DNA of 64,000 nt, from IMG/VR virus record IMGVR_UViG_3300023180_000036, positions 18,463 to 82,462 of that record; one strand, written 5' to 3'. A model generated the notes under the pieces. The model was not told the DNA's origin, did no database searches, and saw only the letters and a program-made list of their open reading frames with translations. The stretch comes from a virus. This document shows positions 45,899-61,030 of the stretch, piece by piece (the first letter of the stretch is position 1; each line of letters begins with the position of its first letter). The position numbers were made by a program, and so were the translations under genes.

Positions 45899-46192
45899 AT
45901 GAACTATGTAGAAAAAATTATTCAGTGGCATCATGATAGAAATCTTATTGAAGGTTCTACAGATAAAGACCAATATATGAAACTTATTCAAGAAATGGGT
46001 GAGCTATCGGACAGTATCTGTAAAAATAAAGACATTAGAGACGATTGTGGTGATATTATGGTTGTTCTAATTAATATTATGGAAAGAAACAATATAAGTT
46101 TTGAAGAATGTCTTGAAGTAGCCTATAATGATATTAAAGACCGTAAAGGTAGAATGGTGGATGGTGTGTTTATAAAGGAAGGTGATAATTAA
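45899..46192 (+). CDS. mazG: MazG-like nucleotide pyrophosphohydrolase, 97 aa
   Basis: Single-domain all-alpha NTP pyrophosphatase. IQEMGELSDSICKNKDIRDDCGDIMVVLINI, taken as helices, supplies the ExxE...ExxD-type metal site. Phage MazG proteins hydrolyse (d)NTPs and have been proposed to affect nucleotide pools. The transcript from the promoter immediately upstream would have no leader. TAATG coupling to the glycosyltransferase-like gene. Confidence 0.82.
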   Translation: MNYVEKIIQWHHDRNLIEGSTDKDQYMKLIQEMGELSDSICKNKDIRDDCGDIMVVLINIMERNNISFEECLEVAYNDIKDRKGRMVDGVFIKEGDN

Positions 46193-47127
46193 TGCAACCA
46201 AAATACCCAATCTATATAATTTCTAAGGGTAGAGCGGACTCACGTCTTACTTCAAAAACTCTTGAAGAAATGAGAGTACCATACAGAATTGTTATTGAAG
46301 ATAGTGAATATGATGATTATGCTAAAGGTATATCACCCGAAAAAATTATAACTCTGCCTACAGATTTTAGAGAAAATCCAAAGTATGCAATTCCAGATAA
46401 CAAAGGCAGAATTGGCGGTTCTATTCCTGCACGTAACTTTGTTTGGGAACATTCTATTAATGAAGGTCATAAGCGGCATTGGATTATGGATGATAATATT
46501 AAACATTTCTATAGATTACATAAGAATAGAAAAACTAAAGTAACCTCTGGAACTATTATTAGATTATGTGAAGATTTTACCGACCGATATACTAATGTAA
46601 AAATGTCTGGTATGAATTATCAATATTTTGCTCCAGCTTCTCAGAAAAAAAAGCCATATACACTTAATACCAGAATTTATTCTTGTATTCTATTATCTAA
46701 TGATTTGAAACATCGCTGGCGTGGTAAATACAATGAAGATACAGTTCTAAGTCTTGATATTCTAAAAGATGATTGGTGTACAATTTTATTTAATGCATTC
46801 TTATGTGGTAAAATTACAACTCTTGTTATGGGCGGTGGTAATACTGATAATGTGTATGTTGACGGAGACAATCGTTTACAGTTTGCACAAGCACTTGTAG
46901 AACAACATCCAGATCTGGTTAAAGTTGTACATAGATATAATAGATGGCATCACCATGTAGATTATAGTCCGTTTAAAAAGAATAAGCTTATCTATCGTGA
47001 TGACTATGTTATTAAAGGTGGTGTAAACGAACACGGTATGAAATTACATAAATTAACTATGGAACAATATAAAAAAGCAACTACAGAATTTGGAAACGCG
47101 GAGAACCCCTACTATGAGCAAACCTAA
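46192..47127 (+). CDS. TET-associated glycosyltransferase-like protein, 311 aa
   Basis: YPIYIISKGRADSRLTSKTL, PARNFVWEHSINEGHKRHWI with MDDNI (99-103, DxD-like metal site), LNTRIYSCILLSN, and HRWRGKYNEDTVLSLDIL with NEDT (181-184) match the phage GT-A family named TET-associated glycosyltransferases, predicted to glycosylate modified bases in DNA. No TET/JBP dioxygenase or base hydroxymethylase is visible in this window, so the acceptor is not known. It overlaps the next gene by 14 bases. Confidence 0.68.
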   Translation: MQPKYPIYIISKGRADSRLTSKTLEEMRVPYRIVIEDSEYDDYAKGISPEKIITLPTDFRENPKYAIPDNKGRIGGSIPARNFVWEHSINEGHKRHWIMDDNIKHFYRLHKNRKTKVTSGTIIRLCEDFTDRYTNVKMSGMNYQYFAPASQKKKPYTLNTRIYSCILLSNDLKHRWRGKYNEDTVLSLDILKDDWCTILFNAFLCGKITTLVMGGGNTDNVYVDGDNRLQFAQALVEQHPDLVKVVHRYNRWHHHVDYSPFKKNKLIYRDDYVIKGGVNEHGMKLHKLTMEQYKKATTEFGNAENPYYEQT

Positions 47128-60285: not shown

Positions 60286-60314
60286 TGATTAATAAATCTT
60301 ATAGTTATTAATCA
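60286..60314 (+). repeat. 10-bp inverted repeat ahead of the tmRNA
   Basis: TGATTAATAA (60286-60295) and TTATTAATCA (60305-60314) with a nine-base loop. AT-only stem without a T run. Two TATAAT boxes follow (60318-60323, 60328-60333), so it borders the likely tmRNA promoter. Confidence 0.6.
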
Positions 60315-60335
60315 TCATATAATACTATATAATCT

Positions 60336-60615
60336 GTAGACGTTATAAAGACTATATGGACCTGGGGGCGGCACCCAGCAGCTCCACCATAAACACTTGA
60401 TAGAGGACGCTCGAAAATTCTGGGAAGCAGATAGGGAAGTAGCTACCTGATTCTGTGGAGAAATTCAAGTGTTTATGATGGGGCTGAAATAGGATCGACA
60501 TGTATTCTAGTTTACAAAATACAAATGCAAACGATAACTTTGCACCATCTGGTTACGCACTAGCTGCATAACACAGGGGGTTGGCCACTTACCTAGCAAC
60601 AGAAATAGTGGCACA
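60336..60615 (+). ncRNA. ssrA: circularly permuted two-piece tmRNA (alphaproteobacterial type)
   Basis: The acceptor piece comes first: T-arm CTGGG / CCCAG (60362-60366, 60374-60378), acceptor strand CAGCTCC (60379-60385), discriminator A and encoded CCA (60387-60389). The coding piece begins GGGGCTG at 60480, which pairs with CAGCTCC over all seven positions (one G-U). The intervening segment is closed by a 13-bp helix, CATAAACACTTGA (60388-60400) with TCAAGTGTTTATG (60465-60477). The tag frame at 60527-60571 encodes ANDNFAPSGYALAA and then TAA, a standard ssrA-type tag ending ALAA. GCCACT/AGTGGC (60584-60589, 60607-60612) forms the 3' helix of the coding piece. Outer ends are approximate. 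Confidence 0.93.
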
Positions 60616-60649: not shown

Positions 60650-61030
60650 ATGAAAATCGCAGCACTCACAGTAGCAGCAACAATTGCAGCAACATCAGTA
60701 TCAGCAATGGACCTTGGTTCAACAGGTCTTTCACTTAACACAGAAGTAGACGCATCATGGGATCTTGATGCTGATACGAATAACCTTCTCGTTACTCTTG
60801 AGCCAGAGTTGGGTTACAGCATTGTTGGTGTGAGCCTTACGGCTGGTATGGATCTTAATGTTTATCAGAATGAAGAATTTGTTCTTGGTGATCAGTTTGA
60901 CGCTCTTTCAATTGACTTTGGTGCGTCTTATCAAATTATGGAAGGCCTTTCCGCTTATGGTGAAACAACCTGGGACGTAGAAGCTAGTGAACTCGAAGCA
61001 TCAAAAGTTGGTGTTACTTTTTCATTCTAA
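60650..61030 (+). CDS. small outer-membrane beta-barrel-like protein with signal peptide, 126 aa
   Basis: MKIAALTVAATIAATSVSAM is a clean signal peptide with a likely cut after SVSA. The mature part has alternating hydrophobic/polar strands (LSLNTEVDASWDLDA, LLVTLEPELGYSIVGVSLTAGMD) and ends in GVTFSF, a C-terminal Phe as used by the BAM insertion signal. Looks like a porin-like fragment of host type. Codons are far less AT-biased than most of the window, suggesting high expression or recent acquisition. Possible receptor-masking role. Confidence 0.68.
   Translation: MKIAALTVAATIAATSVSAMDLGSTGLSLNTEVDASWDLDADTNNLLVTLEPELGYSIVGVSLTAGMDLNVYQNEEFVLGDQFDALSIDFGASYQIMEGLSAYGETTWDVEASELEASKVGVTFSF

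Follow-up and report, generated by a model that had tools for sequence, protein, structure and literature searches.

The locus at positions 60336-60615 (+) of the window (the whole stretch of 64,000 nucleotides analyzed here, which runs from 18463 to 82462 in a virus record of 82,462 bases) raises the question of whether a virus encodes a working tmRNA of its own and, if so, how this RNA is built and what it contributes to infection. An earlier note had described the locus as a two-piece tmRNA in circularly permuted form, encoded by a phage and provided with an ssrA-like tag of 14 residues, and had named the lack of any match to permuted tmRNA models as an outcome that would speak against this reading. 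Both models of this kind matched the window above their curated gathering thresholds in cmscan searches, namely RF01849 (alpha_tmRNA) at 60295-60615 (+) with 84.6 bits (E=1.8e-21, gathering threshold 50) and RF04321 (tmRNA_permuted) at 60332-60571 (+) with 77.5 bits (threshold 47), and no further Rfam match at E<=1 was detected anywhere in the window. The gene was not detected by ARAGORN, and a BLASTN comparison of the window tmRNA with 50,697 phage records produced no match, as did the same comparison with the tmRNA of a relative; because tmRNA sequences diverge too fast for BLASTN, this empty result is not evidence of absence. The phage origin is borne out by the gene content of the contig, which encodes T4-like terminase, sheath, portal, gp23 head protein and DNA polymerase along with recombination and replication genes. 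Among named phages, the nearest ones include C48C1, for which no host is given, Melnitz (host OM43) and the SAR11 phages HTVC008M and Mosig, whose head proteins are 59-67% identical to that of the contig. Three other contigs carry the same tmRNA sequence together with an identical 130-aa neighbor protein.

Direct reading of the plus strand yields the permuted order. The acceptor piece, which is the tRNA-like 3' part of the molecule (60336-60389, also covered by the Rfam matches), ends with an encoded CCA (60387-60389) and lies upstream of the coding piece (60480-60615, with an approximate 3' end; direct reading and Rfam), which starts with GGGG; the two are separated by an intervening segment of 90 nt (60390-60479). 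The 3' strand of the acceptor stem, CAGCTCC (60379-60385), pairs with GGGGCTG (60480-60486) over 7 bp and includes the alanine identity pair G3-U70 (G60482-U60383), a G-U pair that is kept in 144 of 144 relatives. The 280-nt extent, the CCA, the seven-pair acceptor stem and the 13-bp helix reported in the earlier note were all recovered at these positions, and the identification of 60336-60615 as a circularly permuted two-piece tmRNA gene is confirmed at the level of sequence.

The remainder of the predicted fold is likewise that of a tmRNA. The T arm (CUGGG-GGCGGCA-CCCAG, 60362-60378) consists of a stem (60362-60366/60374-60378) and the loop GGCGGCA, and the T stem covaries in both of the spacing classes described below, as does the acceptor stem in the relatives. 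Helix H2 comprises a distal part, in which GTAGAC (60336-60341) pairs with GTTTAC (60510-60515), and a proximal part read from the sequence, in which UAUAU (60353-60357) pairs with AUGUA (60500-60504) and the core of which covaries among 76 short-class sequences. All 6 pairs of the distal helix are formed in 68 of the 69 unique sequences of the short class, with two-sided changes and 14 helix types, such as GUAGAC/GUUUAC, GAAGAU/GUCUUC, GUAGAU/GUCUAC, AUAGAC/GUCUAU and GUAUGC/GUAUAC. When the strands were dealt anew, complete pairing was obtained in 29.9 sequences on average (maximum 43), an excess that is partly built in because the register was picked for each sequence among a few neighboring positions, a freedom that the shuffles did not have; a fixed-register count agrees, with all six pairs at 100% in 76 aligned short-class sequences. 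Downstream of the tag, a predicted PK2-like 3' pseudoknot (60578-60612; S1 60578-60581/60591-60594, S2 60584-60589/60607-60612) has counterparts that combine S1 with an S2 of 5 bp or more in 65 of the 70 sequences of the short class and 59 of the 67 of the full class, and S2 occurs in many sequence types. Judging from these counts, which are drawn from related sequences rather than from independent events, the RNA structure in the relatives is under purifying selection.

The main departure from this plan is the absence of the pseudoknot PK1, which in a typical tmRNA lies between H2 and the tag. In the window, the distal 3' strand of H2 (GUUUAC) is followed by a linker of just 11 nt before the resume codon (60510-60526 for strand and linker), which leaves no room for PK1. 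Neither Rfam model requires this element, and the assignment of the window to tmRNA stands because PK1 is typical rather than defining and is absent in a few known tmRNAs. More than 100 permuted tmRNAs were retrieved from IMG/VR by scans for the tag start, and the distance between the conserved TCGAC and the resume codon in these genes is bimodal, with 26-29 nt in 82 sequences, the window included, against 57-70 nt in 69 and few values in between; the short class is inflated in these totals by the second scan, which required short spacing, and the first scan plus the neighbors of the window alone give 24 short against 71 full spacings. The coding piece of the short class is arranged in the order TCGAC, H2 proximal strand, H2 distal strand, 10-13 nt (mostly 11-12) and GCA. 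These remaining 10-13 nt cannot hold a pseudoknot, so that PK1 is absent throughout the class. An alternative fold with a pseudoknot inside the 27-nt span was considered and rejected, since the H2 distal helix, conserved with two-sided changes, uses part of that span.

In the full class, by comparison, 31-38 nt follow the distal helix wherever that helix was clear, and PK1-like stems such as CGUG/UACG and UUGACC/GGUCAA can be found. The presence of PK1 there rests on segment length, the published structure of the alphaproteobacterial RNA and the score of a general PK1 finder, which was only partly successful (mean 7.7 against 5.2 for shuffled sequences). Three tmRNAs with a spacing of 37 nt (L074, L091 and L100) likewise have just 11 nt after the distal helix and may represent a second, separate loss of PK1. 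By its predicted anatomy, the window is thus a member of a discrete PK1-free class of about 80 sequences. No report of such a class in phages was found in the literature within reach of our search, most subscription papers lying outside it. In three full-class genes (L012, L022 and L118), the tag and the bases that follow it are nearly letter-identical to window positions 60527-60586 and the 5' halves are those of the other class, which suggests recombination at the tag.

To our knowledge, the tmRNA of Oenococcus is neither permuted nor phage-borne, unlike that of the window. Lack of PK1 is shared between the window and the tmRNAs of Oenococcus oeni and a few others, a plastid among the known cases (PMC1168896). 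Phage two-piece tmRNAs were reported in 2022 by Buchholz and co-workers, who obtained 133 unique phage tmRNA structures, 53 of them two-piece and 50 of these aquatic, from 18,146 genomes and proposed rescue or degradation of host proteins as their roles (PMC9004378); a tmRNA database of 2025 lists 79 bacteriophage sequences of all forms (PMC11915505). Phage-encoded permuted tmRNAs as such are, then, already known, and more than 100 IMG/VR contigs carry them. The bacterial family RF01849 (e.g., Caulobacter) resembles the window in piece order, acceptor stem, T loop type, H2 and the tag start ANDN, but the PK1-bearing segment is missing from the window, and the alignment shows a gap in its place. 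The Pelagibacter phage Mosig EXVC030M (MT647606) is, like the source of the window, a T4-like marine myophage with an alpha-type permuted tmRNA (annotated SsrA) and a similar closing helix; it differs in its tag (GEDNFALAA), its PK1-sized spacing of 58 nt and its intervening segment of 43 nt. The Methylophilales phage Melnitz (MZ577097, PMC9004378) is also T4-like, with a head protein 61.8% identical and an alpha-type permuted tmRNA, but has the tag ANDNYVPVDYALAA, a PK1-sized spacing of 62 nt and an intervening segment of 142 nt with an unannotated ORF; PK1-sized spacing is found in HTVC008M as well. A glutamine riboswitch is reported near ssrA in Melnitz, whereas cmscan found none in the window.

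The comparison with Melnitz also bears on the host. In the earlier note, the permuted form, known from Alphaproteobacteria and a few other lineages, was taken to indicate the host group. As stated, this part of the reading is not supported, because Melnitz infects an OM43 methylotroph and still carries a tmRNA of the alphaproteobacterial type (PMC9004378); on this comparison, the type shows to which lineage the RNA belongs but is no proof of the host, which is not readable from it. The 82-kb record, a fragment when set against the genomes of relatives (about 141-156 kb), yielded no SmpB gene, and the phage tmRNA therefore probably needs the SmpB of the host.

The tag frame ANDNFAPSGYALAA (60527-60571, +) encodes 14 residues from the resume codon GCA (60527-60529) to the stop TAA (GCA AAC GAT AAC TTT GCA CCA TCT GGT TAC GCA CTA GCT GCA TAA), and thus combines an internal frame, a resume codon and a hydrophobic degron end. 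A degenerate search for ANDNFAPSGYA, in which serine codons were limited to TCN, found one match among 84,980 species genomes, a set outside which the host may lie. This match is located on a contig binned as Muricauda (NHBR02000136.1, L132) that bears its own permuted tmRNA and the ORFs of which read as clamp loader, sliding clamp, Hsp20 and dCTP deaminase-like proteins, which we take to be T4-like phage genes; the contig is probably a mis-binned phage contig. With its sole match on a phage contig, the tag of the window therefore looks phage-specific within the genomes searched. The codons for the last four residues, Ala-Leu-Ala-Ala (GCN CTA GCN' GC), are spanned by a small 3-bp hairpin (60557-60567, GCA 60557-60559/TGC 60565-60567), and in 83 of the 86 unique sequences the first two alanine codons of ALAA have third bases complementary to each other, against a mean of 29.1 and a maximum of 46 after shuffling.

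The intervening segment is closed by a 13-bp helix (60388-60400/60465-60477), which is present in the minimum-energy fold of the segment (z=-4.0, with none of 200 shuffles equally stable) and in that of the whole RNA (z=-3.65); positions 2-10 of this helix are 90-100% paired in the relatives, with many two-sided changes. The longest ORF within the 90 nt of the window, 17 codons from TTG, is not significant and was rejected as a nested gene, being attributed to chance; segments shorter than 100 nt show little excess of ORFs. Among the relatives, the length of the segment varies from 5 to several hundred bases, and in 27 of the 28 unique segments of 140-300 nt an ORF covers at least 70% of the segment (1.6 expected). 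Such nested ORFs occur in L059, L078, L094, L026, L028, L141, L222 and others, and at 46013-46345 in Melnitz (MZ577097), where the ORF is unannotated. The predicted proteins belong to several unrelated families; one matches Pfam DUF6356 (E 5e-12), another is near DUF2061 with a score just below the cut-off, and 287 viral-contig relatives exist for a family of 69 aa. The closest of these lie within tmRNA genes, and 69 of the 80 fetched relatives had no surrounding tmRNA by the test used. Ten ungapped comparisons of homologous nested ORFs gave low Ka/Ks values of about 0.04-0.5, the L072-L073 pair being left out as not usable. No literature report of such nesting of protein genes within permuted phage tmRNA genes was found. 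The gene immediately downstream of the tmRNA in the window (60650-61030) begins with MKIAALTVAATIAATSVSAMDLG, which is signal-peptide-like, and has no match in PHROGs.

Upstream of the acceptor piece, the relatives have a T4-type late-promoter motif. The exact TATAAATA, the position of which hardly varies, occurs in 33 of 77 genes of the short class (1.35 expected from shuffles) and in 34 of 68 genes of the full class (0.45 expected). In the short class, this motif lies approximately 4-5 bases before the distal strand of H2, so that transcription would begin near the 5' end of the mature acceptor piece. The window itself has, at about this place, TATATAAT (60326-60333, +), a degenerate copy of the motif and a weak promoter candidate, and no sigma-70 promoter match beyond chance was found in the stretch around it.

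Taken together, these features make it very probable that the locus encodes a functional phage tmRNA of the alphaproteobacterial, circularly permuted (two-piece) type, with the function being inferred. The gene order, the acceptor stem with its identity pair, the CCA, the T arm, H2, the tag frame, the 3' pseudoknot and the lack of space for PK1 are read from the sequence, whereas the mechanism is an extrapolation from the known pathway. A single transcript, probably initiated at a nearby upstream promoter of the phage late type, would be folded by the 13-bp helix such that the CCA end is next to the GGGG start; the 90-nt segment would then be excised by host RNase P and 3' trimming enzymes, and the two pieces would be held together by the acceptor stem and H2. 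Host alanyl-tRNA synthetase, EF-Tu and SmpB, none of which was found in the phage fragment, would employ this tmRNA during infection to free ribosomes that have stalled on broken mRNA and to add ANDNFAPSGYALAA, the LAA end of which would direct the product to host ClpXP. The likely benefit is that ribosomes and amino acids are kept circulating while mRNA is broken down.

Other roles appear considerably less probable. The phage tag could replace that of the host and give stalled products a different fate or a protease adaptor of the phage's choice. This idea, which the earlier note had raised as a phage-defined degron, draws on the absence of the exact tag from a cellular context in the genomes searched and on the wide variation of tags from phage to phage. 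The window tag, however, retains the ordinary -ALAA end and hence most likely feeds host ClpXP. An AA end is found in 64 of the 67 distinct phage tags, two of which are truncated at contig ends, and 54 have the LAA that ClpX recognizes, so that the fate of the products is probably unchanged and we regard re-tagging as unlikely. Somewhat less likely still is a decoy that titrates host SmpB or blocks host trans-translation and, lacking PK1, tags poorly. An RNA with a tRNA-like domain like that of mycobacteriophage DS6A inhibits tmRNA, and a decoy role has been proposed for the DS6A RNA, which consists of the tRNA-like domain only, but a decoy would have no need of the tag frame, alanine resume codon, LAA end, stop, H2 and 3' pseudoknot that are kept across about 80 short-class sequences. 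The least probable explanation is a host ssrA gained by imprecise excision and now decaying without function: ssrA genes are common integration sites and such an origin has been suggested for phage ssrA (PMC9004378), but the gene is complete, its structure is strongly constrained across relatives, the relatives have a phage-type promoter motif upstream and the gene content is T4-like.

The reading of the locus as a functional phage tmRNA thus retains the core of the earlier note and extends it to four points not covered there: the lack of PK1, the 3' pseudoknot, the precedents from published phages and the nested genes in relatives. PK1 has been described as the sole pseudoknot needed for tagging by E. 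coli tmRNA (reviewed in PMC3968760), whereas later work argues that it gives structural support only; a hairpin or single-stranded RNA is reported to be able to take its place (PMC3968760, PMC4236655). A natural and widespread PK1-less class in which the preceding helix covaries offers a direct test between the two views, and the natural loss fits the view of PK1 as replaceable. We tentatively propose, at somewhat less than even confidence, that marine phages evolved a minimal, PK1-free and efficiently tagging permuted tmRNA in which the intervening segment serves as a slot for small protein genes, a single transcript giving rise to a two-piece tmRNA as well as a nested mRNA; the window would then belong to the PK1-free members and have a slot devoid of a protein gene. 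The phage-specific tags and the nested genes of the relatives suggest that phages keep and rework trans-translation, beyond carrying a host copy. A short-class tmRNA is also carried by a viral contig of 236,751 bases with no match to T4-type gp23 (L163), and the short class may accordingly extend beyond T4-like phages.
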